Source: an uncultured Methylococcaceae bacterium (GTDB taxonomy: Bacteria > Pseudomonadota > Gammaproteobacteria > Methylococcales > Methylococcaceae). Taken from it: DNA of 45,461 bases. The DNA lies in assembly GCA_903911305.1 (NCBI GenBank), contig CAIWDB010000139.1, positions 1-45,461 on the forward strand. Reading direction: 5' to 3'. Numbering within the stretch: position 1 is the first letter of the stretch; each line of letters opens with the position of its first letter. Shown here one piece after another: positions 825 to 42,009 of the stretch. The position numbers were made by a program, and so were the translations under genes. The notes under the pieces were generated by a model. The model had not been told where the DNA came from, ran no database searches, and saw only the letters and a program-made list of their open reading frames with translations.

Positions 825-1442
825 TTACCCTTGGTTTTCCTTAACTAGCCGTCTCAAACCCAAAGCCAAATCCCGGCTTAGCCGGTTTAGGCATTCATTC
901 ATTGCGCTTGCCATCAACCCATAATCTGTGATCGATGCCGGTTCGCGGTAGTCGGCTTGACGGCCCGACACCGTCTGTTCGCCACGGGCTACGCTCCATT
1001 GTGCGGTCAACACCGCCACACCCTGCGGATCGACGTAAAATTCCAAGACAGTGACAGACACTTTAAATGTCGCCTGTTGCGCACGGGGGGACGAATTCGA
1101 CATCACTACATCCGACGGCACCAACAAGCCAAGGTTTTGCACCAACACCCTAGCGATATTGTCGTCCAAGCGTTCGGCCCAACGATTGGTTTCACTCAAG
1201 TGATAGGCGTTTTTGCCAGTCGCCGTCACCATTTGCGGGCGATCCAGGTACTGTGGGATGCGAACGGGGCTAAGGGCGATGAAAGGCCGGGCGGATTCAT
1301 TGAGCAGACCGGCATCCTCAGTGCCCTTGATCGGTTCCAACAGATAAAATTGCGACAACGGAGACTTCCCCCCGATACAGGCCGATAGCAACAAGGCCAA
1401 CAGCAGCAAGGGCAAAACGGGCCGGATCAAACTCATGATCAA
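825..1442 (-). CDS. ABC-type transport auxiliary lipoprotein (PqiC/DUF330-like)
   Basis: N-terminal lipobox (LLLSACIGG), SQFYLLEP start and PVRIPQYLDRPQMV motif typical of the family; adjacent to an MCE gene. Confidence 0.85.
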   Translation of the reverse strand: MIMSLIRPVLPLLLLALLLSACIGGKSPLSQFYLLEPIKGTEDAGLLNESARPFIALSPVRIPQYLDRPQMVTATGKNAYHLSETNRWAERLDDNIARVLVQNLGLLVPSDVVMSNSSPRAQQATFKVSVTVLEFYVDPQGVAVLTAQWSVARGEQTVSGRQADYREPASITDYGLMASAMNECLNRLSRDLALGLRRLVKENQG

Positions 1443-1447
1443 TATCC

Positions 1448-2515
1448 TTAATGGTCTTTACCGGAAATCACCGATTCCGGGTGGCGTTCTAGGTAATCCG
1501 TCAGATTTTTCAGGGAACGGGCTGCATCCCTCATCGCGACCAAGGTTTCGTTCAAGGTGGAATCCGGGCCGACCGCGCCATCCACCGTCTTCAACGTTGA
1601 CTGCGCCCTGACGAGTGCGGCGGTCGCGGTGTCCAGTGCAGTCGTTGCGGCCACCATCGCCTTGTCGGCATTGACTAACGCCTTCTCCGCGCCAGCCAGC
1701 ACCGGCTTCACTTCTTGATGGACATCGTTGACCATGGAACGCGAATCTTGCATCAACCCATTGGCCCCAACAACCGTCGCCTTGGTTTCCTTGAGAATGG
1801 GCTCTAGGTTCCGGTTCAGCGTGTCCAAGGCTTGTTGCAATTCCTGCAAGGAATTGGACAAGGCGACATTTGACTGTTTCATTTCCTTGGATGCGATTAG
1901 GTCGCGGATTTCAATCAGGGTGCTGGAAAGATTGTGGGCAATCTCATCAATTGGCAATTTCCGCAATTTCCCCGACATTTCTTCTGCGGTACTGCGAAGT
2001 TCATCGGTCGTAGCGGGTATGCAAGGCAGTTCAATCAACCCCTCATACTCAATATGAGAGAACTGGGCAGGCTTCTCGGGGTACATGCCAAAATCGACAT
2101 ACAGCAAGCCAGTCAGCAGGCTTTGCATCTCCAAACGGGCGCGAAACCCTTCACTGACCAGCTTATTCACATTGGCCCGCAAGCGTTCGGGTTCAGGGTC
2201 GATTTCATCAACCAGCCCGTTCAATCCAACAAAACTATCCCGGTTGATTTCCACAACCACGGGTTTGAACACTTTGCCGGTGTCTTGATCGATTTCAAGC
2301 TTGATGTCTTGAACCATGCCAATCTTGACCCCCTGCATTTTGACTGGCGCGCCGATCTCCAACCCATTCAACGACGAGTCAAAAAAAATCACAAGATAGA
2401 CTTTGTTCGTGTCAAAAAGCTGTGAGCCGCCAAAGATCAGCAGCCCGGCCACTAGCAGTGCCAACGCGCCTAGGGTGAAACCGCCAATGATCATGGGGTT
2501 GACGGGTTTACTCAT
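1448..2515 (-). CDS. MlaD/MCE-domain protein
   Basis: N-terminal TM followed by an MCE domain (FDSSLNGLEIGAPVKMQGVKIGMV) and a long helical C-terminus. Confidence 0.9.
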   Translation of the reverse strand: MSKPVNPMIIGGFTLGALALLVAGLLIFGGSQLFDTNKVYLVIFFDSSLNGLEIGAPVKMQGVKIGMVQDIKLEIDQDTGKVFKPVVVEINRDSFVGLNGLVDEIDPEPERLRANVNKLVSEGFRARLEMQSLLTGLLYVDFGMYPEKPAQFSHIEYEGLIELPCIPATTDELRSTAEEMSGKLRKLPIDEIAHNLSSTLIEIRDLIASKEMKQSNVALSNSLQELQQALDTLNRNLEPILKETKATVVGANGLMQDSRSMVNDVHQEVKPVLAGAEKALVNADKAMVAATTALDTATAALVRAQSTLKTVDGAVGPDSTLNETLVAMRDAARSLKNLTDYLERHPESVISGKDH

Positions 2516-2557
2516 AAACTACAGCGCTGCCAATGAACGGGGACACCTCGCCACCGC

Positions 2558-3382
2558 TTAAGACTTGCCCACAGTCCCGGCAACCAAGACGCGACCGCCG
2601 ATAAACGGACCCAACCAAGGAAAAACCCGCATGAAACAGCAATCCACTTTGCTGATCCAATCCGCGTCCGGCAACAAACGGCGGACTAGAAAATTGAAGT
2701 AAGCCCGGTGCAACACATTCGACATCGGAGCCTCGACCCAACGCATGTCATCCTCGCTCATCTTGCGCTCGTCGGCGGTAATATAGGGTTTGCGGGAACC
2801 ATAAATCAGTCGCTGCATCCGGGGGTACAGAACCTGCTCGACGAATTGGGAACGCCGCACGTTTTCAGTCAGGCTATGGGAATAAACCTCACTCACCACC
2901 AGCAGCCCGCCCGCTTTGATGACACGGCGTATCTCAGCGACAGTCGGCACCACATCGCAATGATGCAGCACATCATGGGCAAGCACCATATCAAACAGAC
3001 TGTCTTCATACGGTAACGTCTCGGCCGGAGCCACCTTAAAATCAATGCTGAGCGCATCCCTGCCGGCGCGTTCGCGGGCAATCTCAATGGATTCCGGGCT
3101 TAAGTCGAAGGCATGGACATTGGCCCCTAGCTTAGCCACGCGCAACGCATCATCGCCAAACCCACAGCCAATGACGAGGACGTTTTTCCCTTTCAGGCCC
3201 AAACCCCGAAGGTATGAATACAGCGCCCAGTAGGGATTCCACCAACGGCGGACCTCGGAAAAAACGACTTCGTAGTTAGTCGGCTGCTCCGCAAGATGGC
3301 GGTGCTTTTTGGCATGCTCCCGGTGATACTCCAGTTCGCGCAATTGCCGTACCGTATAACCGTCCTCTTCTTGCATAGTCAT
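2558..3382 (-). CDS. class I SAM-dependent methyltransferase
   Basis: Motif I VLVIGCGFGDDALRVAKLGANVHAFDLSPESIEIA and FDMVLAHDVLHH. Confidence 0.85.
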   Translation of the reverse strand: MTMQEEDGYTVRQLRELEYHREHAKKHRHLAEQPTNYEVVFSEVRRWWNPYWALYSYLRGLGLKGKNVLVIGCGFGDDALRVAKLGANVHAFDLSPESIEIARERAGRDALSIDFKVAPAETLPYEDSLFDMVLAHDVLHHCDVVPTVAEIRRVIKAGGLLVVSEVYSHSLTENVRRSQFVEQVLYPRMQRLIYGSRKPYITADERKMSEDDMRWVEAPMSNVLHRAYFNFLVRRLLPDADWISKVDCCFMRVFPWLGPFIGGRVLVAGTVGKS

Positions 3383-3603
3383 GCGATCCCAAATCTTCAG
3401 GTATATAAAAGAATCAATTATAACGCCACTGCCATCGCAAGGCGCAAGCCGTTTTCTCGCCCACTTATCAAACTAAGTTTCGATAAGTAATGCGGCCTCG
3501 CAAGGCTGGCCTTGCGAGGCCACTTACAGACAAGGCAAACTTCGCACTCCCAGCCTAATGTCAAATACCGCTTGGCTGGGCGCATCACTTTTTATTGCAC
3601 CTT

Positions 3604-4392
3604 TCAAACAGCCCTCCCCTCGCCCCTCGTCAGAAACTGGATGATTTTGGGGTTGGAGGACTCCGCCAGCAGTTTTTTCGGGGAGCCTGTCGCCAACATG
3701 GTCTTGGTGTCGGCATCCAAAAACACCGAATTGTTGCCAATGGCGAAGATGCTGGCCAGTTCGTGAGTGACCACCACAATCGTCGTGCCCAAGGTGTCGC
3801 GCAGATTGATAATCAGATCGTCCAACAAACGGGCGCTGACCGGGTCCAGCCCTGCCGACGGCTCGTCGAAGAACAAAATCTCAGGGTCCAAGGCTATCGC
3901 ACGGGCCAACCCGGCGCGCTTCTGCATACCGCCCGAAATTTCGGACGGGTAATAATCCTCAAAACCGGCCAGCCCAACCAAGGCCAGCTTGTAGGAGACG
4001 ATATCTTGGATTTCGACACGGCTTAGCTTGGTGAACTCGGCCAATGGCAGGGCGATATTCTCCGATAGCGTCAGTGAACTGAACAACGCACCGCTTTGGT
4101 AAAGCACGCCTATGCGGCGCATGATCGACACCCGTTCGCTTGCATCCGTCTGCCAAAAATTTTGCGTGTCATAAAACACCTCGCCTTTGGCCGGACTCTG
4201 CAATCCGATCAGGTGTTTCAACAAAGTACTCTTGCCGCAGCCAGACCCGCCCATGATGATGAACACATCGCCCCGGCAGATGGTGAAATTCAGATCATGC
4301 TGGATCACGAAGTCCCCATAGGCCATGGTCAGGCCCATCACGGTGATATGCGGGTTCGCCATACTGCCATTCAAACCCCAAACCGGCTGCAA
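3604..4392 (-). CDS. ABC transporter ATP-binding protein (MlaF-like)
   Basis: Walker A GGSGCGKSTLLK, signature SGGMQKRAGLARAIALDPEILFFDEPSAGLDP. Confidence 0.92.
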   Translation of the reverse strand: MQPVWGLNGSMANPHITVMGLTMAYGDFVIQHDLNFTICRGDVFIIMGGSGCGKSTLLKHLIGLQSPAKGEVFYDTQNFWQTDASERVSIMRRIGVLYQSGALFSSLTLSENIALPLAEFTKLSRVEIQDIVSYKLALVGLAGFEDYYPSEISGGMQKRAGLARAIALDPEILFFDEPSAGLDPVSARLLDDLIINLRDTLGTTIVVVTHELASIFAIGNNSVFLDADTKTMLATGSPKKLLAESSNPKIIQFLTRGEGRAV

Positions 4393-5537
4393 ATCAATGT
4401 GATCACCGAATCCGCCACCACGATGTAAACAATGCTATTGACCATGGCTGCCGTCGCCGCGTCACCCACCGCCGAGGCACTGCGTCCGCATTGCATACCC
4501 CTCATACAACCTGCGACCGCGACCAGTATCGCAAACACCACACTCTTCCCTAAACCAACCGAGAAATCGGACAAATGCACCGCCCTGCGCGTTTCATTGT
4601 AATACTGTAGAAAGGAGACATCAAAGGCGCTGACTGTCACCAGCGCGCCGCCTATTATGCCCATCAAATCGGAATATAGCGCCAGCAAGGGCATCATCAG
4701 CACCAAAGCCGACAGGCGCGGCAACACGAGGAATTCCATGGGTGAAATGCCCATGGTCTTGAGTGCATCGATCTCACTGTTGACGTTCATCGTCCCCAGT
4801 TGCGCCGCATAGGCTGCCCCGGTACGGCCCGACATGATGACTGCCGTCATCAAAGCCCCCATTTCACGCACAGTCCCCAAACCCACCAGATCGGCAATGT
4901 AAATCTGTGCGCCGAACATCGATAACTGCACCGCGCCGACAAAGGCCAAGATCAGGCCCACCAGCAAGCTGATTAGCGTAATGATCGGGAGCGCCGAAGG
5001 CCCTGCATCCTGAATGCACAGTAGCATGTCCACAGGCCGGAACCTCGCCTTGCCGCGCAACAATGCCCATCCGGCCAATATGGCTTCGCCGATGAAATAA
5101 ACCAATCCCTGGACATCTTTCCACGCGGCCAACACTGCCTTGCCGACCTCAGTCAACATAGGCTTGCCCTGTTCCGAGCGCCTCGCGCCAGTTCGCTCGG
5201 GAACCGCCCGAGCCAATTTGAGCAAGCCTTGGACACCCTCCGGCAAACCGGCTACATCCACGTCGATGCCCAGCCGTTGGCACTCATCGCCGATTTTGAT
5301 CAGGCAGGTTGGCAGACGGCTATCCCATGCCGTTAGATCGCCGGATTGCAACAGGAGTCGGTGGGGTTTCTGTTTGAATGCCAATTCGGCAATCACCTCT
5401 GAGGCCGACCCGCCAATGGTTGCCTTTTTAACCCAGTCACCGCTGAATTGGAGAATGGAAACAGCTAAATCGTCGGTGGGTATAAGCTTAACAGCCCCGA
5501 CACTCGCCTGCGGGCTAGTCGTCTCAATTGGCTTCAT
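4371..5537 (-). CDS. MlaE-family ABC transporter permease with N-terminal STAS-like region
   Basis: MlaE core VREMGALMTAVIMSGRTGAAYAAQLGTMNVNSEIDAL; overlaps the ATPase gene. Confidence 0.9.
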   Translation of the reverse strand: MKPIETTSPQASVGAVKLIPTDDLAVSILQFSGDWVKKATIGGSASEVIAELAFKQKPHRLLLQSGDLTAWDSRLPTCLIKIGDECQRLGIDVDVAGLPEGVQGLLKLARAVPERTGARRSEQGKPMLTEVGKAVLAAWKDVQGLVYFIGEAILAGWALLRGKARFRPVDMLLCIQDAGPSALPIITLISLLVGLILAFVGAVQLSMFGAQIYIADLVGLGTVREMGALMTAVIMSGRTGAAYAAQLGTMNVNSEIDALKTMGISPMEFLVLPRLSALVLMMPLLALYSDLMGIIGGALVTVSAFDVSFLQYYNETRRAVHLSDFSVGLGKSVVFAILVAVAGCMRGMQCGRSASAVGDAATAAMVNSIVYIVVADSVITLICSRFGV

Positions 5538-9052: not shown

Positions 9053-9700
9053 ATGAAAGACAACAGTAAACGCTTAGTGATCTTATCCGCTTTGTTGCTT
9101 ACCGCTGCATTGATTCAAGGCTGTTCCCATGCGGATAAAAAACAGGCTATTGATTCTGCCGCGACAACCGCGCAAGAGCCAGTGGCTGAGACGGTTAGTG
9201 ATAGCAAGCCGGGCGGGATTGAAGGCGAACTTGTCGTCGTCACTGCGACAGTCAAGGCTATTGATAAGAAAAATCGTGTCGTAACATTGAAGTTTCCAGA
9301 CGGCAAAGAGAAGAAAGTCAAATGCGGCCCTGAAGTGCGCAATTTCTCTCAAATACGCGTTGGTGACGAGGTTAAGGCCCAGTTTTTGGAATCAGTCGAA
9401 TTGGTGGTGAGCGGGCCTGGTGCAAAACCTTCGGTGGAGCGTGAAAAGGAAGTTGCCCGCGCACCCTTAGGTCAAAGACCGGGGTTTGCAGCCATTGACG
9501 CGATAGAAGTGACTGCCACTGTGCAGAGCATTGATTATAAAACTAGAAATGTCACGTTATTAGGCCCCGAGGGGAAAACGTTTAAAATGAAAGCCGGTTC
9601 CGAAGTAAAGCGCCTTAACGATGTTAAACAGGGCGACACCGTGTTGGCCCGTTTGACTAAGGCGGTTTCCATTACCGTCACTAAGCCGGGTCAAAAGTAA
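9053..9700 (+). CDS. lipoprotein with two tandem beta-rich repeats
   Basis: Lipobox LIQGCS; two copies of VTATV..ID.K.R.VTL..P.GK...K.G.EV......V..GD.V.A. Confidence 0.75.
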   Translation: MKDNSKRLVILSALLLTAALIQGCSHADKKQAIDSAATTAQEPVAETVSDSKPGGIEGELVVVTATVKAIDKKNRVVTLKFPDGKEKKVKCGPEVRNFSQIRVGDEVKAQFLESVELVVSGPGAKPSVEREKEVARAPLGQRPGFAAIDAIEVTATVQSIDYKTRNVTLLGPEGKTFKMKAGSEVKRLNDVKQGDTVLARLTKAVSITVTKPGQK

Positions 9701-9823: not shown

Positions 9824-9915
9824 AGGATAAAGAAAGAAAGAAGGATAAGTAAAAGAATAAAAGAATAAGAAGGCAAATTTTTAAAATTTTTCCATATATT
9901 ACAGTAATGTGTAAA
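9824..9915. promoter_or_regulatory. AT-rich, purine-strand-biased segment; candidate DNA unwinding element
   Basis: Run of ggataaagaaagaaagaaggataagtaaaagaataaaagaataag...tttttaaaatttttccatatatta directly before the iterons. Confidence 0.5.
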
Positions 9916-9923
9916 ATAGTGCC

Positions 9924-10490
9924 GCCACCTGTTCCTATAAGGTAAGGGGCATTTTCCAGTCTTATATAGCCACCCGCCACCTATTCCTCCATAAAATCAA
10001 ACAAACCGCCACCTATTCCTCTATAAAAACATGCAACATGCCACCTATTCCTATAATGGAAGGGTCGGTTTTAGCTGAATTTTGGGTCGGATATGGTGGA
10101 TATCCTGTGGATAACTATGCCCCGCCACCTATTCCTATAGGAACTCGCCACCTATCCCTCCATGTCTCCGATTGTGGGCTAACCTTTTTTAGGCGATCTT
10201 TTGCCGGTCAGGCAGTGCTTGCTAATAGGCTCTATGTGACTGTTTGCATTTAATTTTATGGTGGTTTAACGGGAAACGCCACCTATTCCTCCATAGTGTA
10301 TGGTGTGTTTTATTGGGTTTTTCACATGCCACCTATTCCTATAGGTGTTGGATGGGTCGTCCCGGACTGAATCGCCACCTATTCCTATAGGCTGGTGTGG
10401 TTGTCTTGTTCCTCGGTATGGTCGATTGGGTTTGGCGGGTGAGTCGTTAGGGTATGGATGAGCCCCAACCCGCCACCTATTCCTATAGGA
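9924..10490 (+). repeat. iteron-like direct repeat array, ten copies of GCCACCTATTCC(TATAGG/TCCATA)
   Basis: Copies begin at 9924, 9976, 10008, 10040, 10124, 10147, 10278, 10328, 10374 and 10472, all in the same orientation. Confidence 0.9.
10106..10114 (-). promoter_or_regulatory. perfect-consensus DnaA box (TTATCCACA on the minus strand)
   Basis: Plus strand reads TGTGGATAA inside the iteron array. Confidence 0.6.
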
Positions 10491-10552
10491 TAATGGCAGA
10501 AGTGCCTCATCTTGGATTTCCAGCTTAACCAAGGTATAGCTTGGATTGTCCA

Positions 10553-11659
10553 TCAATCTGCGGGTAACAGCTTTTCCTGCGAGATGGCTTTTCTCTTATT
10601 GGCCGCTTTGGCTTCCTTGATGAATTCCATGGAGGGGGTCAGCGTGTAGACGACATCCAAGATTTTGCGCCTGGCCCCGCTAACCGCTTGGCGATGAAAG
10701 CTCATGATGATGTTTTTTTCCTTGAGTTCGTTGATGACTTGATCCAGTGCGGCGATGCCTGCCCTCTCCCGTCCATAGTTGATCATGAAACTGTCCCGTT
10801 TGATGGTCGAGTAGCGGATTTCAAACGGTGTCATCAGCGACGCGAAGGTGTATTTGATAACGAGCTGGCGGTGGACCCATCGCCCGAGCTGTGTACTCAT
10901 GCTCATCAGTTTATCAAGGTCGAACTGGCGGTAAGTCGCCTCGATGATGCTTTTGGTGACCAGCGGGTGGAATTCGACCATCCACTGGCTGTCGGGGTCG
11001 GCCTTCAAATCTTCGCGGGACACGGATACCATGTCGGGGAGGTAATTGGACACCCGGGTGCCTTCGTTACCCTTCCCGTCCAAAGATTTGATTTCAATGG
11101 ATGACTTTGCCATGATTTCCAGTGAGCGTTTGATCTCGGCGATGGAGCGGGCGTGTCCGCGTTTTTTCAATTCGGTTTGAATTTGGTAGAGTGAGAAATA
11201 GACGCCGACCTTGGCGTTTTCGGTGTCGTGGAAGCCTTGCAACCGCTCCGCCGCTATTTTCCGCAATATATCCTCGACCAGTTCTTCGTTGGCGCTGGGG
11301 TAATAGTCGAGGACTTCCCCGTCGCTTTCGCGTATTCGCGCCGGCTGGATTACCGCCCTGAAATCCAGGCCACGATACTTGAACCGGATTTCGAGCAGCC
11401 CCAAAAAGCCATCCGCTGTCCGCCGCTTGTTCATTTCCAGTTGCGAGATGGAATATCTTGGCACACTGTCCCATAGGTCGATTGCGTTGGACAGCTTGTC
11501 CTTTTCGCCCGCATTGCAAAGAAAGGTCTGGAAAAGGTCGAGTTGAGTGGTGCTGAAGATGCCGGGTGGAAGATTGGTGTCTGCCAACTGTGCGGCATCC
11601 CTCACTGGGACTAGGCTGTTGGCAGGTGCTATCTTGTCAGTGGGGATGGGTTTTTGCAT
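10553..11659 (-). CDS. plasmid-type replication initiator protein (Rep, winged-helix, RepB/Rep_3-like)
   Basis: 368 aa; YRQFDLDKLMSMSTQLGRWVHRQLVIKYTFAS...FEIRYSTIKRDS resembles the Rep WH domain; it sits beside an iteron array. Confidence 0.7.
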   Translation of the reverse strand: MQKPIPTDKIAPANSLVPVRDAAQLADTNLPPGIFSTTQLDLFQTFLCNAGEKDKLSNAIDLWDSVPRYSISQLEMNKRRTADGFLGLLEIRFKYRGLDFRAVIQPARIRESDGEVLDYYPSANEELVEDILRKIAAERLQGFHDTENAKVGVYFSLYQIQTELKKRGHARSIAEIKRSLEIMAKSSIEIKSLDGKGNEGTRVSNYLPDMVSVSREDLKADPDSQWMVEFHPLVTKSIIEATYRQFDLDKLMSMSTQLGRWVHRQLVIKYTFASLMTPFEIRYSTIKRDSFMINYGRERAGIAALDQVINELKEKNIIMSFHRQAVSGARRKILDVVYTLTPSMEFIKEAKAANKRKAISQEKLLPAD

Positions 11660-12083: not shown

Positions 12084-12437
12084 CTAGAACACTAGAAATT
12101 GGTTTGTAATGAGCGATTTCTTTTGACTGCTTATCGGTGTGGGCTTTTTGCCGGCATCTAACTTATTGCTTGCGACCAGTCTAGGTTTATTGGCAATGTC
12201 CTGTTTGGGTCTATTGTCAACTTCTGGCTTGGGCAAAGGCTCCTCACCGCCATAATTTTCGGGGAGCTTGATGGTATGGTGAGTGAAGATGTCATCAAGG
12301 ACTTCCCTGCCCTCGGTCATGGCATCCAATGCCGCGACCAGTTGTTCGATAGTCGATCTGCTGTCCCCTAGCGAAACATGGGAACCGTCCGCCAGTACGC
12401 GGGTAATGGTTACGATGTCAATGTCTGTATTCATCAC
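12084..12437 (-). CDS. hypothetical protein, charged C-terminus
   Basis: 117-aa ORF with no antisense competitor of similar quality. Confidence 0.4.
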   Translation of the reverse strand: MMNTDIDIVTITRVLADGSHVSLGDSRSTIEQLVAALDAMTEGREVLDDIFTHHTIKLPENYGGEEPLPKPEVDNRPKQDIANKPRLVASNKLDAGKKPTPISSQKKSLITNQFLVF

Positions 12438-15207: not shown

Positions 15208-15266
15208 GCAGCGGATCGGCAGTACATCCAATGCTGGTCTTCGTGCCGGGTGGGTGAGCAGGGGCG

Positions 15267-15386
15267 ATGCTGTTGAATTAAACAGTAGGCCGGTGTCTCC
15301 GTGCCGACAATGGACGGGTTTCTTCTCTTGGCGGCAAAGGCTTGCCGACCTACTGATTATATCGTGCGGGCTTAATTCAACAGCAT
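15267..15386. mobile_element. MITE-like element, copy 1
   Basis: 15-bp terminal inverted repeats ATGCTGTTGAATTAA / TTAATTCAACAGCAT; about 120 bp; a related copy lies at 42463-42584. Confidence 0.75.
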
Positions 15387-15780
15387 TGGGAACCATGGTG
15401 GGGATGTCCAGTGGAAATGGAAAGGTTTCGGTCGATGGGCGACGTTGCATTTTTGAGGCATAGCTTACCGGAATAGGGTCGGCATCACCAAGGGCGTAGC
15501 GGGTAAGCCTCTGCAAGCTTATCCGAGGGCTGGGTTGGGCGAGTGTGGCGGATGTTGTTCGGGAGGGTGATTGCAGTCGCTGAGTTTGTCTGCCAGGTGG
15601 ATTCTCAAAATGCAAGTGGCTTTGCATTTTGCAATCGAGTAAGGTTGAAAATTGCAAATTTAAGGCATTCAAGAATAAGAGTGAACTTATAAATATATGA
15701 TTATTAATTGAATTATAGATTGGCATCAACTATGCCTATTCTAAATTGCCAGTCATCCATTCCACATTTGAGGAAAGTTA

Positions 15781-16455
15781 ATGAAAATGATCAAAACCAC
15801 TCAAGCTGCCCTTTTCTTTGCCATCTCTGCCGCGCTGCTTGCTCCAACGGTTGCCAACGCCACTGTTGTCACTACCACATTAACAATCAAGGAAAATGAA
15901 GTTTCAAAGACAGCAGGCACTGGGGATGGCAAAGCCCCGTTTGCATTCATCGTCAACCAGACGGGGTGGCTGAAATTTGAGCCCCAACAAGAAGGCAGTT
16001 CTAAGGACGCATTGTTGTTTGCCGGAAAATATCAGTCGGGTGGGCCGGTGGCTAAAGGGACGGTCTATGCCTGGCTGGTCGATCCGAAGACCCCTAACGC
16101 GGTGAGCGACAAGCTGACCCTGACCTATGAAACCAGCGACAAAGGCATTACCGAAATCACCGATGGTAGTTTTAAATCCGATAGTGGCGGGGCAAACTTG
16201 GGCGTATTGCCCGTTGGCTTAGGTGTCTTGGAAAAGTCAACGCCGGTGTCAATTTCCACATTTTACAAGCTTGTTGGCAGCAATTATGTAGCCACCTCGC
16301 TGCCGGGCAATCTGGCGATCAGCGTCCAGTCATCTGTGGCGGCTGTCCCGGAACCCGAAGAATGGGCGATGATGCTGGTCGGTGCCGGCTTGGTGGGTTT
16401 CCAAGTCAAGCGCAAGCAGACTCAATTGAACAAGAATCTATTTAAACATAGCTAA
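15781..16455 (+). CDS. PEP-CTERM sorting-domain protein
   Basis: Signal peptide and C-terminal VPEPEEWAMMLVGAGLVGFQVKRK. Confidence 0.9.
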   Translation: MKMIKTTQAALFFAISAALLAPTVANATVVTTTLTIKENEVSKTAGTGDGKAPFAFIVNQTGWLKFEPQQEGSSKDALLFAGKYQSGGPVAKGTVYAWLVDPKTPNAVSDKLTLTYETSDKGITEITDGSFKSDSGGANLGVLPVGLGVLEKSTPVSISTFYKLVGSNYVATSLPGNLAISVQSSVAAVPEPEEWAMMLVGAGLVGFQVKRKQTQLNKNLFKHS

Positions 16456-16518: not shown

Positions 16519-19500
16519 TTAATATTCATGCTGGTAGATCACCCCGACACTGCTCGTGCTGGATGCGCCCGAAGCGCCGCTGGCAGGGGCACCAGTGCCG
16601 GCAGTGCCTTCCACCTTCAAACCCTTCACTATGTCGATCTGTACGGTGGCCTGAGTGCCAGTCCCGGTGACACCCTGCTTGGCCCCGACATAAACCCCCG
16701 GTGCGACATACCGCCCGGCTTCCAGTGAGGGGTTGGCTCCGCCGATCGACAGCCGGTCCAAGCCCAGCCCTTTGCGCACGGTTTCCAATGGGTCGCCGAT
16801 GCCGGAGGTGACCCCGGTCAGCGAGGCCACGGCGGAGGCAATCTGAATCATTTCCAGCGGGCTGAGACTGGCGGAGCTACGCCCAAACAAGAGCCTTGCC
16901 AGCACTTCGTCCTGTGGCAGCTCGGGGATACTGCTCAGCTTGATTTTGGGGTTGCTGGCATTGCCGCTGATGGTGAGTATGGCGGTGATGCCACCGCTGG
17001 CGGTGTCGGCGACGAAATTCAGCGAAGGGTCTGCCAGGCTGCCGCCGTCAAAGCCGAGTTCACCCTTGCTAAACGTCAGGCGCTGTCCCGCTAGGGTATA
17101 TTCGCCACGGCGCAGCGCGAAACCGCCGTCAGGCTGCGGCTTGTCTGCCGTGCCGCGCACATGGACTTTGCCGCCGAGTTCGGCTTCCAACCCCCGTCCC
17201 CGCACGAAAATCTCACGCGGGGCATCCATGGTCAAATCCAGCGCAATGTCGGGCCCCGAGGTGGGTGGCGGAGGCGGCGGCACACCGGGCCTGATGACGT
17301 TCAGCACGGCAATTTTGGCGGGCATGCGTTCAGGGATGCGGATTTCGGCACGGATGATGTGGATTAGGCCAGCGAGGACGAGTTGCCCTTTGGCGTAGCC
17401 TTTAACGGTCAGGTCGGTATTCAAGTTGACCGTCATCCTGTCATCCGCCAACGGGCGGGCTTTACGGGCGGTCAGCGTCAAACTGACCGGCATGCCCTCC
17501 TCCAGCAGATTCACCGAACCAGTGGCGGACACGGTTCCGGGGTCGGCACGGCCTTCAAATTTGCTAAGGTGGACTACCGCGCCATCGGTTTGCAGTAGCG
17601 CTACGATCTGAGTGAGGTGAGCGCCAATGCTGAAATCCTGCGCTTCACCGCCGGTAAGCTGCACACTGCCGGAGGGGCGCGGCTCCGTCGGAGTGCCGGC
17701 AAGGTCGGCATTCAGTGTGACTTGCCCGCGCACCCGGCGACCTTGTGCGGACAGCAGTGGGTCTAGCAGTTTCAAATCCACAGTGCCGTTGGCATGGAGT
17801 CCGAACAGCCCGGAGCGCACGAGGGGAATCTCCCCGGCGATGCCTAGGTTGGCATGGTTGCCTGCCGACAGATGGCTGGAGAGTTGGGCGGATGTACCGG
17901 CTAGTTGGGCGGTCGCAGTCAGTTTGGCGGGAGGCAGGGCGCGGCCCGCGCCGCTCTTCATATGCAGGTCGTCGGCTTCAATGGCAATCGTGCCGGTTGG
18001 ACGTGCCAGAGTGCCACCTAGCCGGGTTTCCATGTGTAAAGTTCCCGTGGCGGCTAGGTCGGGGACGAAGAGCGTGGCTAAGTCGGTGGTGACGTTGCGC
18101 AAATCGGCGGTCAGATTGAGCGTGGGGCTGATCCGGCCCGCCACATCCAACTCGGCTTCCCGCAGGCCCAACCGCAACCGATCCACGGCAAGTCCGTCGG
18201 CAAAGGCTATGCGCACCGGTGCCAACAGGCGCAGGGTTTCGTTTTTCCAGCCCGCTTCCAATTCGAAAAGGGTTGCTTGCTTGGCTTGGGTGTCGAGGTT
18301 GGCCGCGCTGCGGAGTTGGACTTCGGCCCCCGTCGCTGACTGGATGGCGGAGGACAGGCGCAGCTTCAATCCTTCCAAGGGTCCGGCTAGTTCTATTTGC
18401 GCGGAACCGGATAAATTACTGGACGAGATTCCCTCAAGTTTGATTTGCCCGTCCATGACCGGTTGCCGGATAGGGTCAGCGACAGTCAGCGCCAAGGAGG
18501 ATCTTTCTACCATGGCGGTGCCGGTCAAACCGGCGGAACGCGCGTCGAGTTGCAGTTGCGCCAGTGGTCGGCTACCCTGCATGGAGGTTTCCAGTGTCGC
18601 GTTGAGGCTGCCGATCAGCGGTTGCTCGATGAATGGTCGCAGGTCTTCCAGGTGGGCCATGGCAAGCTCAAGCTTGCCGAGCGGGAAGTCGGTGCCTTTC
18701 GGCAGCGTAAGATTTCCCCTGGCCTGCGCGCTTTTCCAGATGGCGCTGTCGATCACCACTTGTAAACCACCGTCCACAGGCGCTTTGGCGTTGAGCGCAA
18801 GGTCAATCGGAGCGCCGCCCAACATGCCTCGCACTGTGAACTGGCCAGAGGGCGATTGAGGCAAGCCTTCCAGATTGAGCTTGGCGGCGATTGGCCCGCG
18901 TGGCAGTGATTGGGTCGCCAAGTCGCCGTTTAAATCGGCGGTGACTGCAAACTTATCCAAGGGTCCTGTCATCTTGCCTTGGCCTGCGATTTGGCCGGAA
19001 CCCCCCGCCAGAACGGCGGCGAAGTCTTTCAGCGAAAACTTCCAATTGAAATTTGCGTTTTTTCCGGCGAGTTTGCCGTCCGCCGAAACTGCCAGAGCCT
19101 TGCCATCCAAGGAAAACCGGGAAAGAGTGATGTCCTCGCCTTGCTGGCTGGCGGACATGCCAATCTTTGCGGCATTTCCCAGTAGATTGACCAAGGGTGG
19201 CATGCCGTTGGTCACCGCTAACGTGCCGTCCACATCCAGCTTGACGGTTTCTCCTTGGTTCGCCACGCGCAGTGCCAAGTGGGTGTTGCCTTGCATGTCC
19301 AAGCCGCCGATGACTGCCAGTGGTTTCAACTCCGGCAAGTCCAAGCTTATGTCGGCACGCCAGTCGCCACCGGTGAGCGCTTTGCCATCGGCGGTGATGA
19401 TGGGGTGTTTCAGTTTGAAAATAACGGGCCTTTGCGGTGTGTCCAATCGGATGTCGGCTTGGAATGCCAGTGGGGCGGACTCCAGCAAGTCTGGGCGCGG

Positions 19501-20514
19501 ACCAGGCAGCCTCAATCCTTTGAGTTCGCCACGAACTTGCACTGCCCCTGCGTCGCCTTGCACATCCATGGTGACGCCGCGCATACTGGCACTAGCGGCA
19601 TTCAAGTTGTCGATCAGCAACTTGCCGTCGGCGGCGGGTTTGTTAAAGGGTCCGCGCACTTTCGCGTCCAGCGCGATGGCTTGCCAGCTCAAGTCGGGCC
19701 GCAGTTGCATGGCGGGTGCTTTGGCGTTGACGGTCACATCGGCGGCATTGTGTTCCAAGTCCAACTGGCCTTGCAGTTTTGCTTGAAGAGGGCCAAGCGT
19801 GAGGCTCAGCCGGGTTTGCAAGGAGGACAGCGGGCCATCCACATCCGCTTCGGCAGAGAGCGCGTTCATGCCTTGGAAGTTGGCGTATGAGGAAACCAAG
19901 CCGTGCGCCGGTTCTTGCACGGTTAGGTGTGCGCGTACTGTGGCATTCTCGAACTTACCCTGCAAGGCATATGCCCCCTCCCCATCCAAACGTTTGATTG
20001 AGAGGTCAGCTTCGCCTTGTTCCAGCGAGCTTAGGTTGGCATTGCCGTCAATCGCAAGGCTGGCGGCCTTGCCAGCCACGGGTTCGGCCAAATCCAGCCG
20101 CCCTACGTGCAAACGCCGCAGATTCACGCCCACCGGCAGGGTGGAAGAACTTTCTTCTTCCGTTGAGGACGGGGGCAAGCGGTTCAGTGTGATGTGTTCA
20201 GCTTCCAGCCGGTCAATCTTCGCCGTTCCCGCCAACAATCGCATCGGTGACCAGTCCAATGCCAACTCATCCATTGCCAACCATACGCCCTCGCCGTCGC
20301 GCAGTTCAAGACGGCGCAGGCGCATGGCATCGGGGAAATGCCCATCAAACCCGGTCAGCGTGATGTCCCCGGCGGTTAGCGCCGATACGGTCTGTTCGAT
20401 CCATTCGCGCCCAAGCTGGGTATTGGCGGCGAACAATCCCAGTGTGGCGGCCAACAGCGGCAGACCGATCAACCAAGCGAAGAACATAACCGTCCAGCGG
20501 ATGGCCAGGCGCAT
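16519..20514 (-). CDS. tamB: translocation/assembly module TamB (DUF490)
   Basis: 1331 aa, single N-terminal TM, beta-helical repeats, C-terminal DUF490 (LTFSKGELGFDGGSLADPSLNFVAD, LPQDEVLARLLFGRS). Confidence 0.9.
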   Translation of the reverse strand: MRLAIRWTVMFFAWLIGLPLLAATLGLFAANTQLGREWIEQTVSALTAGDITLTGFDGHFPDAMRLRRLELRDGEGVWLAMDELALDWSPMRLLAGTAKIDRLEAEHITLNRLPPSSTEEESSSTLPVGVNLRRLHVGRLDLAEPVAGKAASLAIDGNANLSSLEQGEADLSIKRLDGEGAYALQGKFENATVRAHLTVQEPAHGLVSSYANFQGMNALSAEADVDGPLSSLQTRLSLTLGPLQAKLQGQLDLEHNAADVTVNAKAPAMQLRPDLSWQAIALDAKVRGPFNKPAADGKLLIDNLNAASASMRGVTMDVQGDAGAVQVRGELKGLRLPGPRPDLLESAPLAFQADIRLDTPQRPVIFKLKHPIITADGKALTGGDWRADISLDLPELKPLAVIGGLDMQGNTHLALRVANQGETVKLDVDGTLAVTNGMPPLVNLLGNAAKIGMSASQQGEDITLSRFSLDGKALAVSADGKLAGKNANFNWKFSLKDFAAVLAGGSGQIAGQGKMTGPLDKFAVTADLNGDLATQSLPRGPIAAKLNLEGLPQSPSGQFTVRGMLGGAPIDLALNAKAPVDGGLQVVIDSAIWKSAQARGNLTLPKGTDFPLGKLELAMAHLEDLRPFIEQPLIGSLNATLETSMQGSRPLAQLQLDARSAGLTGTAMVERSSLALTVADPIRQPVMDGQIKLEGISSSNLSGSAQIELAGPLEGLKLRLSSAIQSATGAEVQLRSAANLDTQAKQATLFELEAGWKNETLRLLAPVRIAFADGLAVDRLRLGLREAELDVAGRISPTLNLTADLRNVTTDLATLFVPDLAATGTLHMETRLGGTLARPTGTIAIEADDLHMKSGAGRALPPAKLTATAQLAGTSAQLSSHLSAGNHANLGIAGEIPLVRSGLFGLHANGTVDLKLLDPLLSAQGRRVRGQVTLNADLAGTPTEPRPSGSVQLTGGEAQDFSIGAHLTQIVALLQTDGAVVHLSKFEGRADPGTVSATGSVNLLEEGMPVSLTLTARKARPLADDRMTVNLNTDLTVKGYAKGQLVLAGLIHIIRAEIRIPERMPAKIAVLNVIRPGVPPPPPPTSGPDIALDLTMDAPREIFVRGRGLEAELGGKVHVRGTADKPQPDGGFALRRGEYTLAGQRLTFSKGELGFDGGSLADPSLNFVADTASGGITAILTISGNASNPKIKLSSIPELPQDEVLARLLFGRSSASLSPLEMIQIASAVASLTGVTSGIGDPLETVRKGLGLDRLSIGGANPSLEAGRYVAPGVYVGAKQGVTGTGTQATVQIDIVKGLKVEGTAGTGAPASGASGASSTSSVGVIYQHEY

Positions 20515-22439
20515 CAGAAAGCCTGCCCTAGGCCGATGTAGACCTCATAGGAACCGCTGTTGCTTTGTTTGATGACGGGCAAGGCCACGTCCAGCCGGAT
20601 CGGCCCGAATGAAGTATAGTAGCGTGCGCCTACGCCTACTCCCATGCGCCAAATGCCGGTGAAGGGCAAGCCGTCGGTGTTGACTTGGCCTACATCGGTA
20701 AAAACGACGGCGCCGTAGTCTTCCAAGATGCGTTGGCGGAATTCCACCGTGCCCGCCGCCATGGCCGTGCCGCCCAAGGGGTTGCCATTCCAAGTCTGCG
20801 GCCCGATGGATTGGAATTTGTAGCCGCGTACTGTGGTGCTGCCGCCAGCGTAGAAACGTTTGTCCGGCGGCAAGTCGAATTGGCTGGCTCCTTGCACATC
20901 GCCAACTGTCCCGCGCACCGCCAACACGCTGCGACCGGGTTCGAGCAAGTCCAAATAGGTTGAACCGGATATCTGCATGACGAGAAAGGTGCTAGGGTTA
21001 GGGGCGTTGATGAGTGCGGATGACGAGCTGGCCAAAGGCAGGATGGGGGTGATGGATGCGGCTGCGCGGATTCCCTCGGTGGGGTCGAGCAAATTATTGG
21101 TGCTATCGTATTTCAACACCACCGGCAGGCTTAACAGGGTGTAACGGTTGGTTTGGCTTTGTCCGAAGACGGTGGAGGCTTGAGTGATTTCCGATTGCTC
21201 CCCGGCGAGGCCGACGCTGCCGCTCCAATAATTCGCGAACTTCCGACTCAGCGTCACATCGCCCATAATGGCCTTTTGGTCATAGGAGATCAGGCTTTGT
21301 TTAATGCCGCCCAGATTGATGTTCAGGGACTGGTTGCGCTCAAAGAAGTCAGGTTTGACGAAGCCGACTATGCCCTTGTAGCCGATGCCGGTCGTGCTGT
21401 TGCCGCCGAGTTGCGTCACCCCCGTCGTCAGGTTCACCTGCTCCGCATTGCCGAACACGTTGCGGTGCTGCCAAGTGCTGGAGAGGCTGCCGCCCAAGTC
21501 AGTGGAATACGCCGCGCCAATGTTGACTGCCCGTTTGGGGCGCTCGGTGAACTCGAATGCCATCGGGAGGCGCCCTTGGCCGTCCAACTGGTCTGCGGTG
21601 TGAACGCGGACGGATGAGAAAACGCCGAGCGCAGCCAAATCCTGGCGGGCCTTTTCGATGGCATCGGGGTTGAACTGATCCCCGTAGAAGATGAGCAGGC
21701 GGTTGCGCACGTAGCTTTCGTTGACTCCGGCCAGCCCGTGCAGCGAAATTTCACCGAGCGTCACCACGGGTCCGGTTTCCACTTGGAAGCTGACATCAAG
21801 CGCTTCGGCTTCCGGCACTAGCACGGCAACCGGCGCGTAGACTTTCGCCAATGCGTAGCCGTTGTCCCGCAGGCTGTTAAGCAGTCTCTCGCGAGCCGCC
21901 AGCACATCAGCCGCCAGCGCTGGTGCGCCGGGATTCAGGCTTAGCTTGGATTTGAGCGGGTCGGGCAAGTCGCCTTTGACCTCGACATTGCGCAAGTGGA
22001 ACAATGGCCCAGGTTCAACCGCAACCGTCACCTGCATGGGCGGGCTGGCCGGTGCGCGGGCAAGGAAGTCGTACAGGCCCGGATCGTCCAATGCCCGCCC
22101 GGCGATTCGCACCTGTGCTTTGCCTTTGTAAAACCCGAAACTGTCCAAGGCGATGGCGAAGCGCTCCAAATCCTTTTGCGCACGCGCCACTAGGGCGAAC
22201 GGACCCACTGGCGCACTTTGGTTCAAACTGACGAGCGTGGAGGAGTCCTTCAAGGCTTGATCCAATGCGGCGTTGCCGGTTTCGGTGAAGGTGACAGTGT
22301 AAGCTTGCGGGTCGGCTGCGCGGCAAACCGTCACCGTCATGGCGAACGCGGCGGCAAGCGCGGCGAACAGGGCAAGCGGCAAACGGCCTGGGGTGTGTTT
22401 GCGGAAAAAACGGTAGGCAACCGGGCTAATCCACTTCAC
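20514..22439 (-). CDS. tamA: TamA/BamA-family outer-membrane assembly factor
   Basis: POTRA-like N-terminus, C-terminal Omp85 barrel (RFYAGGSTTVRGYKFQSIGP; GVGVGARYYTSFGPIRLDVALP). Confidence 0.88.
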   Translation of the reverse strand: MKWISPVAYRFFRKHTPGRLPLALFAALAAAFAMTVTVCRAADPQAYTVTFTETGNAALDQALKDSSTLVSLNQSAPVGPFALVARAQKDLERFAIALDSFGFYKGKAQVRIAGRALDDPGLYDFLARAPASPPMQVTVAVEPGPLFHLRNVEVKGDLPDPLKSKLSLNPGAPALAADVLAARERLLNSLRDNGYALAKVYAPVAVLVPEAEALDVSFQVETGPVVTLGEISLHGLAGVNESYVRNRLLIFYGDQFNPDAIEKARQDLAALGVFSSVRVHTADQLDGQGRLPMAFEFTERPKRAVNIGAAYSTDLGGSLSSTWQHRNVFGNAEQVNLTTGVTQLGGNSTTGIGYKGIVGFVKPDFFERNQSLNINLGGIKQSLISYDQKAIMGDVTLSRKFANYWSGSVGLAGEQSEITQASTVFGQSQTNRYTLLSLPVVLKYDSTNNLLDPTEGIRAAASITPILPLASSSSALINAPNPSTFLVMQISGSTYLDLLEPGRSVLAVRGTVGDVQGASQFDLPPDKRFYAGGSTTVRGYKFQSIGPQTWNGNPLGGTAMAAGTVEFRQRILEDYGAVVFTDVGQVNTDGLPFTGIWRMGVGVGARYYTSFGPIRLDVALPVIKQSNSGSYEVYIGLGQAF

Positions 22440-34423: not shown

Positions 34424-35001
34424 TCAAAGGTAAAACTGTTGGGGTGATGAAAATCCGGCTTGCCTTGCGGGTGAGTCAAAGCCCAATAAGCGATGTCGCC
34501 GGATTTCTGTTGGACGACCGCCGACAATCCCAACTGCCAAATACCTTCATTCGGCAAGCCCAGGCCGTCCAAGTTGACAACGGATTCCAATTCGAGCCAG
34601 CCGGCATCGTGACATACGGCAATTTTAACAGGTTCGCCTAGTTCCGCCATTGCCATGCCTTGCCGGTAGGCAGTAAAAGAGTAAGCCGCCCACGCCGTAG
34701 ACGGGGAAAAGTTGAATTCATAATAGCCCCTGTCAAAGACCGACTCGGTTTTCAAAACCGAGTCGGTCTGTGGCAGCACGGTGATAAATGCCTCGCAACA
34801 GGTGGTTTGCCAAAGCCCGTCGGTTCGGTCCGAGGGTTCGGTCGGCGGAATGTCCAATGCGTCGATGTCGCCCTCAAGCCGGTATTTCAAGGCAAGCTTG
34901 CTGCCTTCCCGCCCAGCTTGCACGGTGACACGATGAAGGGTCGGGCAAGGCGTGGACGGGTGGCAGACTAGGATGGCAATCGGCGCGGAATCAAAGCTCA
35001 T
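34393..35001 (-). CDS. DOMON-like domain protein
   Basis: WQTTCCEAFITV...YYEFNFSPSTAWAAYSFTAYR; start ATG overlaps the CHAT-MBL stop as ATGA. Confidence 0.75.
   Translation of the reverse strand: MSFDSAPIAILVCHPSTPCPTLHRVTVQAGREGSKLALKYRLEGDIDALDIPPTEPSDRTDGLWQTTCCEAFITVLPQTDSVLKTESVFDRGYYEFNFSPSTAWAAYSFTAYRQGMAMAELGEPVKIAVCHDAGWLELESVVNLDGLGLPNEGIWQLGLSAVVQQKSGDIAYWALTHPQGKPDFHHPNSFTFEWVKQLYFRL
34737..34769. repeat. near-perfect palindrome inside the DOMON-like CDS
   Basis: AGACCGACTCGGTTTT-C-AAAACCGAGTCGGTCT: 16-bp arms with a 1-nt spacer. Confidence 0.9.
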
Positions 35002-38000
35002 AGCCGAACCAACAAACCCGACTGACCGGCCTCCGGGTAAAACGCTGCATAGCCATATTTCTCCTGCAAGGCTTTTTGTTCCCACACATCATTCAGTTTG
35101 GTACGGAAGTTGAAGTAAAGGGTCGGGCGTTCGCCGCCATAATGGATGATGCGGCCTATTGCCTGGCGGTCCGGGTGGTTGAAATGGTCGCCGTTGGTCG
35201 AAATTAGATAATGACGGCAATCGAGCAGCTTCATCAGGTCGATGTTCAAATTGTTCTGGCTGGCATGGTGGGACACTTTGAACGCATCGACTTTCAGCCG
35301 TTCCACCCCACGCTGCTTGAGCAATTTCTGAATGGAGGCGACCAGCATCGGCGCGTGGGCATCCGCCCCGAGCAGGATGCTTTTGCCTTGGTACTCGGCC
35401 AGTACGGCAATGCTGCTGCCATTGGGTGCGGCGGCATCAGTTTTGAACGGCGCGTCGGCAAGCTTGTCCACGTCGGTGGACGTGGACGGCGTGGTTCCTA
35501 AGAATTGCGTGAAGTCGGTGGCTTTGCCTGCTGTCAGCCCGAGTTTCTCGATTTCTGCCTTCCATTTTTTCGCCAACGTGGCGAGTTTGTCCTGAGTTGG
35601 CGAGAGCAGGGTTAGGCTCATCCCGCCGGGTAACTCGCAAACCGGCAATTCGTCGCTGTCCAGCATGATCGGCCCACCATTACGCCACTGGTTCCAAGGC
35701 AGTTTGTATTGTTGGATCAGCGTCGAAAATATCTCACCTTGTTTGGCACCCAATTTATCCGACGGCAGGTGCTTCCAACCGTTGAACCACACATCGGCAA
35801 ACCGCACGCCTAGGGTTTGATCGTTGAAGAACGGAATCGCGCCGCCGATGTGGTCGGCATCAATGTGGCTCAAGATAAACAGTTCAAAGTCCCGTTGATT
35901 TTCGGGTTGCAGCAAGACCCGCTGTTTCAGCCGTTGATAGGTGCTGTCGGTTCCGCAATCGATCAACACGCGGGAAGTTGACGGGCCTTGGCCGTATTGC
36001 AGCCACAAGCTGTCCCCGTGGCCGGCGGGCAGCATTTCTATGGTTAAAAACGGTTCCCCGGTGCTGGCCTGTTCCAACAATTCAGACGAACGGGCTTGTG
36101 TTTTCTGTGCTGCCGGTTTCGAGGTCGCGGCCAGTTTGCCTTCGGTTGCTGCTGGACTCACTGGTTCAACGGTTTTTGATTGTGCAGGTGCTTGTGCTGC
36201 CGGGGCGACGTATGGGCCAGATTTGCGTCGTGTCAGTTGTTTGACAAGGGCATTGGCGGTTTCGACGAGTCCCCCCGCCCTATTCCAAGGCAATCTATTT
36301 TCACTGCCCCATTCAGCGAGGCCGTCTTCAAATGCTTGTTGCCCCCACCAATCCACATAGCGCCCAAACTGTCTGCGCGTGGATTCGATGGGGAATGGGT
36401 CGCCCGAGGGGAAATGCTTGATCAGTTCATTCACATGCGCTACGGCTTGTTGTGCGATATTGGCGTGGTCATGGGTAGCCAAACGCAGCAGCCAAAGTTC
36501 CGCCAGACTGCCATGTGCCCATGCCCTCTCCATCATGGACGAGTGGTCGAGGTAAGATTCGGCGGATAACTTGGCAATTTCCCACCAACTCTCAAGCAAT
36601 GGTTGCCCCAGCACGGCGGTTAGCGAAAGCGTTTGCACCAGCGCCCAGTGCAATGTGGCGATGTGTTGCAGCGGCTTGTCTTCGATGACGAGAAAACTTT
36701 TGGAGGCTTGTTGGTAATCTATTCGGGCCAGTTCCAAGCTGTCGTAATGTTGCAGCAAGCAGTTGACGTATTCAGTGGAAGCTTGGCCCATCGCCTTGGC
36801 CCACAGATATTTCACGTGGGCAAGCTGTTTGTGGCTGCTTGCCCTAAGCCCCAGGCATTCCGCGCTGAATTTACCATCCATCGGCAGCTTGTCGAATGTC
36901 CGTATGACCATCTGGGCGAGTCGGTGGTGGTTTTCCAAATCCGCAGGTCCCGGCACAGTCCCTGCTTTGGGGGTGGCTTGTTCCATGTATCCAAGGGCCA
37001 CTTTGTTCGCTTGCTTGCCCTGATAGTACCGCACCTCCTCAAGCTGTTCTTCCAAGTTGCCGGGCAAGGCTTCGTAGACCACGAGGCTGGCCCAGTCGTG
37101 AGTGTTGGCGGCAAAGTGCGCATGCAAGTCGCTACGGATACGGTGCAGCAGTATCCATGGGTTCTTCCCTTGCAGTAGACCTTCGTAAAGGGTTCCTACG
37201 ACCGCAACCGAGCCAAGTTTGGACAATGGAAATTGCGATGCCACCACCAGCGGGATGCCTGCCAAGTGCAGCGCATGGGCCAAGCTGGCCCCCGTTTCCA
37301 ATACCGAGCCGACATTGCCGCTATCGCAGGTCGCCAGTGTCACCACGGTAGGCCGGTGTATTTTATCCACGACGATACGGGTGAAGGCACGGGCCAAGCG
37401 CTCGCCGGAAACCACCTCATCCCCGCCGTCGGTTTTACGCAGCACCAATCCATAGGTGTCATCCCCCTCGACCGGGTTGACGCTGCCGTGGGCTAGGATG
37501 TGGATATGGGTGTACGGGATATTGGCGCATTCGGTGGCAACTTCATCAAAACTTGCGTCCTCAAGAATCGTCAGCCAATCGCCGAACTCTTTCCGCCGAC
37601 CCTCCAGCGAGGCGCTTGGAATGTCTTTGCCGGGGGGGAGAAACGGCATGACGGCCTTTAGCAGATGGTCACGGTGTTCTTTGAAAGGAACGTTGTCGGG
37701 GTCCGAGGAAATGAATAAGATGCGCGGACGCACCGGCCAGAGATTGCCATCGGATGGCACATTCCGGCTGCGTCGGGTGACGCACACAGGCACACCTGTT
37801 TGCAAAACCAGCCAATTTTCATCTGCCCCGTTTGGCCCAACCGGCACTTTTGACAGTTCAAACGGCAACAGGGCCAGTTCGGAAGCCGTCAAGGTTAACC
37901 GCAAATGCACGAGGGTTTCGCTTCCTCCACTGCGGAAGCCCAAAGCGCCCGGCAGCGTGGGGATGGCATCCATTATCTTGGCCATATCCATGCCGATGTC

Positions 38001-38234
38001 ACGTAACACCGCCAAGCGTTCCTTTTGGTCGCTTGGGTCGCCGGCTTCAACGTAGCGCATTTTATCCATGCGCCGTAGGAAAGTGCCGTGTTCGTAAGGC
38101 AGGGTGACAATTCCCGCAACGCTGTCGCCACAAATGCCAAGATACTGGGTCAACGGCGAGAGCAATTGATTGTGCGCCGGGCCGGCGCGCAACAATTCGA
38201 CGGTGACGGTGCGAATCTGGATGCTGTTGTTCAT
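34998..38234 (-). CDS. CHAT-domain caspase-like protease fused to a ComEC-like metallo-beta-lactamase domain
   Basis: CHAT dyad candidates HIHILAHGS (H249) and VTLATCDSGN (C303); C-terminal MBL motif LSHIDADHIGG (790-797) and VSHHASQNN; Ala/Pro-rich linker at about aa 672-725. Confidence 0.88.
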   Translation of the reverse strand: MNNSIQIRTVTVELLRAGPAHNQLLSPLTQYLGICGDSVAGIVTLPYEHGTFLRRMDKMRYVEAGDPSDQKERLAVLRDIGMDMAKIMDAIPTLPGALGFRSGGSETLVHLRLTLTASELALLPFELSKVPVGPNGADENWLVLQTGVPVCVTRRSRNVPSDGNLWPVRPRILFISSDPDNVPFKEHRDHLLKAVMPFLPPGKDIPSASLEGRRKEFGDWLTILEDASFDEVATECANIPYTHIHILAHGSVNPVEGDDTYGLVLRKTDGGDEVVSGERLARAFTRIVVDKIHRPTVVTLATCDSGNVGSVLETGASLAHALHLAGIPLVVASQFPLSKLGSVAVVGTLYEGLLQGKNPWILLHRIRSDLHAHFAANTHDWASLVVYEALPGNLEEQLEEVRYYQGKQANKVALGYMEQATPKAGTVPGPADLENHHRLAQMVIRTFDKLPMDGKFSAECLGLRASSHKQLAHVKYLWAKAMGQASTEYVNCLLQHYDSLELARIDYQQASKSFLVIEDKPLQHIATLHWALVQTLSLTAVLGQPLLESWWEIAKLSAESYLDHSSMMERAWAHGSLAELWLLRLATHDHANIAQQAVAHVNELIKHFPSGDPFPIESTRRQFGRYVDWWGQQAFEDGLAEWGSENRLPWNRAGGLVETANALVKQLTRRKSGPYVAPAAQAPAQSKTVEPVSPAATEGKLAATSKPAAQKTQARSSELLEQASTGEPFLTIEMLPAGHGDSLWLQYGQGPSTSRVLIDCGTDSTYQRLKQRVLLQPENQRDFELFILSHIDADHIGGAIPFFNDQTLGVRFADVWFNGWKHLPSDKLGAKQGEIFSTLIQQYKLPWNQWRNGGPIMLDSDELPVCELPGGMSLTLLSPTQDKLATLAKKWKAEIEKLGLTAGKATDFTQFLGTTPSTSTDVDKLADAPFKTDAAAPNGSSIAVLAEYQGKSILLGADAHAPMLVASIQKLLKQRGVERLKVDAFKVSHHASQNNLNIDLMKLLDCRHYLISTNGDHFNHPDRQAIGRIIHYGGERPTLYFNFRTKLNDVWEQKALQEKYGYAAFYPEAGQSGLLVRL

Positions 38235-41609: not shown

Positions 41610-42009
41610 AGATATTCGCTGGAAACAACGCTTCGATAATTATCAGCGTGCCCTTCATCAACTCACGCTTGCCGTTGAATTGTCACGGCAGCGCCCGCTC
41701 TCAGATCTAGAAAAACAAGGCATCATTCAAGGTTTTGAGTTTGTCCATGAACTGGCATGGAATGTCTTGAAGGATTTTCTGGAATACGAAGGGATTCAAG
41801 GCATCGTGGGTTCACGCGGAGCAGTGCGCGAAGCCTTCAAGCGAGGTTTGGTTGAGGATGGGGAAACTTGGATGGATATGATCGAAAAACGCAACCTTTC
41901 TAGCCATACCTACAATCTGGAAATTGCGCTCACCCTCGTTAATGCCATCATCAATGCTTATTACCCGGCTTTTCTTGCGCTGCAAGAAGAAATGGGACGA
42001 AAAAATTGA
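41602..42009 (+). CDS. HEPN-type nucleotidyltransferase substrate-binding protein (HI0074 family)
   Basis: FEFVHELAWNVLKDFLEYEG and HEPN motif RNLSSH (R-x4-H). Confidence 0.88.
   Translation: MSEDIRWKQRFDNYQRALHQLTLAVELSRQRPLSDLEKQGIIQGFEFVHELAWNVLKDFLEYEGIQGIVGSRGAVREAFKRGLVEDGETWMDMIEKRNLSSHTYNLEIALTLVNAIINAYYPAFLALQEEMGRKN

Follow-up and report, generated by a model that had tools for sequence, protein, structure and literature searches.

The window analysed here is one whole contig of 45,461 bp (G000:C139) from a draft genome of 5.84 Mb in 661 contigs (G000). This genome and six congeners (G001 to G006), whose genomes are metagenome assemblies, represent the genus of Candidatus Methylumidiphilus (Methylococcaceae). 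For this lake methanotroph, we found draft assemblies only. We identified in the window a gene for a plasmid-type replication initiator, rep, with ten iterons, a DnaA box and an AT-rich tract next to it (Table 1). The neighbours recognized by Pfam are an MscS-type channel, TamB/TamA, MlaD/E/F-type ABC transporter genes and a protein of the Hps/OMP-decarboxylase family (PF00215), in agreement with the mscS, tamAB, mla-like and hps genes named in a preliminary description of this DNA. That description had also seen no partition or mobilisation gene; likewise, we detected no ParA-type Walker motif in the window, and the window ORFs that we scanned included neither relaxase nor transfer genes.

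Positions 1–141 recur at 94–100% identity on about 12 further contigs of this genome, in several cases at contig ends, indicating that the contig stops inside a multicopy element. Three further segments (3485–3609, 15263–15390 and 16336–16420) belong to dispersed repeat families of about 80–125 bp with many copies genus-wide, and are probably MITE-like or intergenic elements. The window also encodes a 1078-aa protein with a CHAT protease domain and a metallo-beta-lactamase-like stretch (34998–38234), as well as an HsdM-like DNA methylase beside a nucleotidyltransferase and NTase-substrate-binding pair, in an MNT/HEPN-like toxin-antitoxin arrangement (40248–42401).

Table 1. Features of the window around the candidate origin
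Feature	Position	Strand	Remarks
mla-type lipid ABC transporter operon (MlaE, ABC ATPase, methyltransferase, MlaD, auxiliary lipoprotein)	825..5537	-	
Secreted protein, weak CusF-like similarity	9053..9700	+	Adjoins the array opposite rep; same adjacency in G002
AT-rich, purine-biased tract, putative DNA unwinding element	9824..9920	+	At the far end of the array
Iteron array, n = 10, core GCCACCTATTCCTMTAGG	9920..10487	+	Start-to-start spacing 52, 32, 32, 84, 23, 131, 50, 46, 98
Perfect DnaA box, TGTGGATAA	10106..10114	+	Between iterons 4 and 5
rep, iteron-type replication initiator, 368 aa, predicted winged-helix fold	10553..11659	-	tblastn, AF2, Foldseek, dN/dS
117-aa ORF without family match	12084..12437	-	5' of rep
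tamB-tamA	16519..22439	-	Sole TamA ortholog of G000

The initiator and the origin module

A tblastn search of a plasmid collection with Rep returned matches in 1295 plasmid records, 1264 of which cover at least 80% of the query. The best matches are methanotroph plasmids (42–53% identity, the top ones 50–53%), and the bulk lie at about 29% identity, IncC plasmids among them (RepA, 29% over 88%); one matching plasmid was typed as IncC. These homologs are annotated initiators of complete plasmids rather than the unrelated DNA-binding proteins that the preliminary description had named among the results speaking against an origin. The AlphaFold2 model of Rep has a mean pLDDT of 81, and its best Foldseek matches in the PDB are RctB domains 2-3, RepE54 and pi. 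Rep matched none of the Pfam, NCBIfam or PHROG models, had no relatives in the viral contig collection, and gave no meaningful match in a sequence search of the PDB. By homology and predicted fold, Rep is an iteron initiator, and the earlier claim of a plasmid-type Rep gene beside the array is borne out by the plasmid matches and the fold prediction.

As had been reported, the ten repeats share one orientation: all are direct repeats on the same strand. The core GCCACCTATTCC is exact in eight of the ten iterons, and the variant copies are GCCACCTGTTCC at 9924 and GCCACCTATCCC at 10147. In the whole draft genome this exact 12-mer has 13 copies, eight of them within about 510 bp of array, and its reversed control pattern occurs once, so the clustering of iterons is far beyond chance. 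The perfect DnaA box within the array and the AT-rich, purine-biased tract before the repeats were also correctly recognized earlier; A+T amounts to 78% of the tract, and purines to 84% of positions 9824–9880. The iterons lie 3' of rep. The spacings of 52, 32, 32 and 84 bp (and 63 bp in G003) approximate whole helical turns of 10.5 bp, and the later spacings do not.

We propose that Rep monomers would bind the ten iterons via two winged-helix domains and, together with DnaA at the single box, would open the AT-rich tract. The host helicase would then be loaded and theta replication would follow. Surplus Rep may couple iteron-bound origins (handcuffing), thereby limiting copy number. Opening, helicase loading and the coupling of iterons by Rep are established for iteron plasmids and are carried over here to the window origin, for which we infer both binding of Rep to the iterons and firing.

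Conservation among congeners

Rep is 88–93% identical in three congeners (G002, G003 and G006), and no close ortholog was detected in G001, G004 or G005. In all four orthologous loci, rep is followed by the iterons, DnaA box and AT-rich region. The iteron spacing is identical between G000 and G002 except for one gap (98 versus 108), and the spacings 32, 32, 84 and 23 are common to all four species. A perfect DnaA box is found at the matching place in each of them, 18–19 bp ahead of the same iteron; the AT tract is conserved in each species as well, despite divergence of the DNA that separates the iterons. The dN/dS of Rep is 0.03–0.07 at dS of 0.65–2.0. Between G000 and G002, the median dS is 0.81 for the contigs carrying these orthologs (hereafter Rep contigs) and 0.84 for chromosomal genes, of which only seven were compared. 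The low dN/dS and the similar dS of Rep contigs and chromosomal genes indicate that the origin module is under selection and vertically inherited.

Taken together, the initiator family, the predicted fold, the architecture in four species and purifying selection strongly support a genuine origin. On the same grounds, the part of the preliminary claim that holds is an iteron origin with its own Rep.

Gene order near rep is scrambled from species to species. Beyond dnaA-dnaN, the surroundings of dnaA are scrambled as well, and we therefore rejected scrambling as evidence for a secondary replicon. About 5 kb from the G002 rep is a gene for a 679-aa type IA topoisomerase (G002:C191:49855-51894), also present on G006:C9, that scores above the topA_bact cut-off and far below the PRK08780 topoisomerase I model. 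A NifH-like P-loop protein (G006:C28:35238) surfaced in the ParA motif scan. For tamA (window 20514–22439), dS between G000 and G002 is 0.19, compared with 0.64 for tamB and the contig median of 0.81, which suggests recent recombination or gene conversion across tamA.

Main chromosome or separate molecule

G001 and G002 are joined with full support in the gene tree and share 96–97% identity over a 20-kb control region, which was found in all six congeners searched. Except for dispersed repeats and distant paralogs, G001 contains none of the approximately 60 kb tested from the 169-kb Rep contig of G002 (homologs of window 1–9.7 and 12.9–32 kb; G002:C191 80–100 and 145–149.6 kb). The missing content includes rep and the array, mla and tamAB. 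G004 and G005 are without rep, tamA and most other window genes tested, and a TamA ortholog is absent from all three genomes. The absence of the tested content from G001, despite the high identity of the control region, favours a large secondary replicon. This was one of three options in the preliminary description; the other two, an integrated replicon and an auxiliary chromosomal origin, appear less likely. Whether lost or unbinned, the Rep-contig content acts as one unit, which fits a separate large replicon. Incomplete binning could explain why G001 lacks this content, and even that would be a hint of a different molecule; in principle, the G002 Rep contig may itself come from a close relative and have been misbinned.

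We consider it probable that the window carries the oriV and initiator of a large plasmid or chromid-like secondary replicon that is low in copy number, vertically inherited and shared by several species of the Candidatus Methylumidiphilus genus. We infer its location on a separate molecule; the carrier is probably a chromid-like megaplasmid, and its size would be at least about 170 kb, that of the orthologous G002 contig.

A possible but doubtful alternative is that an IncC-RepA-like plasmid integrated into the main chromosome of an ancestor of the genus, leaving rep-oriV as an auxiliary origin or regulated remnant, and that G001, G004 and G005 lost the region. Consistent with this, complete relatives have TamAB and the mla genes on their main chromosome, and the dinucleotide composition of the Rep contigs is chromosome-like (distance x1000 to dnaA contigs of 16–35, compared with 33–43 for other Rep contigs). 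No ParA-type Walker motif was detected in the 169 kb around the G002 rep or on the Rep contigs of G000, G003 and G006, and parA is found near rep in relatives of the window Rep; this, too, speaks against a separate molecule. There is one dif per genome and never one on a Rep contig, which agrees with integration and fits either location. Homologs of a three-gene block of the G002 Rep contig lie on the ffh-carrying contig of G006, but this linkage is weak: the block is multicopy, and relatives also carry a homolog of it on a small replicon. The strand-corrected GC skew, a check suggested in the preliminary description, changes sign near the array in three of the four species, which accords with integration and fits an active origin of either kind; we did not rely on this breakpoint because the same method gave weak or no signal around dnaA and the permutations ignore spatial correlation. 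Against integration, G001 would have to have lost content spread over more than 100 kb despite approximately 97% identity to G002 in the control region. Moreover, an active Rep with a chromosomal oriV has been reported as harmful: in the SGI1 system, active RepA combined with its cognate oriV in a chromosomal position appeared to be lethal or severely harmful (PMC7826253).

Other properties of the Rep contigs were also recorded. For all their chromosome-like dinucleotide composition, their GC content is 2–5 points above that of the dnaA contigs. None of them has a terminal overlap that would indicate circularity, which speaks against a separate molecule, and they contain neither dnaA nor tRNA genes. 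The absence of tRNA genes was rejected as a plasmid sign: of four large control contigs from the same genome, three are tRNA-free as well, over stretches of 80–97 kb. Homologs of tamA and tamB lie on either side of the dif site in two genomes of the related genus Methylomagnum (G013:C1:2555935-2572610).

It is unlikely that a gammaproteobacterial main chromosome has in this array a second origin, inherited vertically, used in addition to the DnaA-dependent oriC and kept by purifying selection in several species; a long-lived second origin of this kind on the main chromosome would be rare. Still less probable is an ordinary plasmid with a few recently acquired chromosomal genes and no long host association. 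The plasmid family of Rep and the scrambled gene order would suit such a plasmid, but scrambling near rep is uninformative given that around dnaA, the dS of Rep contigs equals that of chromosomal genes, their dinucleotide composition is chromosome-like, and the mla operon is found near rep in four species (within about 30 kb in every carrier species, and directly beside rep in G003 and G006). That Rep is a DNA-binding regulator and the repeats its operators, with no role in replication, is hardly credible: the lack of Pfam, NCBIfam and PHROG matches would accommodate a regulator, but the homologs are plasmid initiators, the predicted fold matches replication initiators, and the locus has a conserved DnaA box and AT-rich tract.

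If the reading as a large secondary replicon is correct, several species hold a large, ancient replicon of this kind whose envelope genes (TamAB, Mla, exopolysaccharide) are chromosomal in relatives, and plasmid-to-chromid evolution and its timing would be open to study. The four orthologous origins amount to a natural mutagenesis experiment on which iteron spacings and DnaA-box position matter for an origin of the IncC-RepA class.

Relation to known replicons

Sequence and predicted fold place the window origin in the IncC-RepA-like iteron replicon class, as a new member. Its initiator is homologous to plasmid Reps and has a predicted winged-helix fold, and several same-strand iterons, a DnaA box and an AT-rich putative DUE are located 3' of rep. 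IncA/IncC RepA replicons similarly have a homologous initiator, an oriV 3' of rep, many iterons, a DnaA box and an AT-rich region, with one DnaA box and 11–14 iterons described for the IncA/IncC oriV (PMC7433901). We also found iterons and DnaA boxes 3' of rep in one Methylococcus plasmid and one IncC plasmid. However, the IncC iteron, yaTRTGGGNNcgcTGCACG, differs from that of the window, and no IncC backbone, transfer or partition genes were found among the scanned genes of the window and G002:C191. As judged from these genes and repeats, the window replicon is not an IncA/IncC plasmid proper. The RepA/oriV of SGI1 differs in having four iterons of another sequence, and SGI1 integrates at trmE and replicates only once excised with an IncC helper.

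The closest Reps in the plasmid collection are those of Methylococcus sp. EFPC2 unnamed2, Methylomagnum ishizawai pRS11DPr2 and Methylomonas sp. AM2-LC plasmids. Related iterons (TAGGTATAGGGGGCGGG versus TAGGAATAGGTGGCG) with a similar 23, 32, 32, 52 spacing occur 3' of rep in the EFPC2 plasmid. Unlike the window, this plasmid carries parA beside rep as well as mobilisation genes; the window has neither, and instead contains TamAB, Mla and Hps-type genes. The genome G000 carries two more Reps of the same family (G000:C518 and G000:C138; 45–52% identity), one of which is accompanied by TAGGTTTAG-type iterons of its own and by a nearby ParA gene. The host probably holds several compatible plasmids of the class of the window Rep.

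With regard to the features of chromids, a plasmid-type replication system is present, and a ParA-type partition system was not found in a Walker motif scan of the Rep contigs. The replicon is not genus-wide, as a close Rep ortholog is missing from three of the seven genomes of the genus. As for core genes, TamAB and mla are chromosomal in complete relatives, and TamA is dispensable since three congeners are without it. Because no ParA-type partition system was found on the Rep contigs and these three genomes are without the replicon, we do not file it as a chromid; it appears to behave as a chromid-like large plasmid. The Vibrio RctB/chromosome 2 origin differs from the window origin in the sequence of its initiator (about 10% identity to the window Rep), but RctB is the best predicted-fold match and, like the replicon proposed here, Vibrio chromosome 2 is a large secondary replicon with an iteron-based origin.
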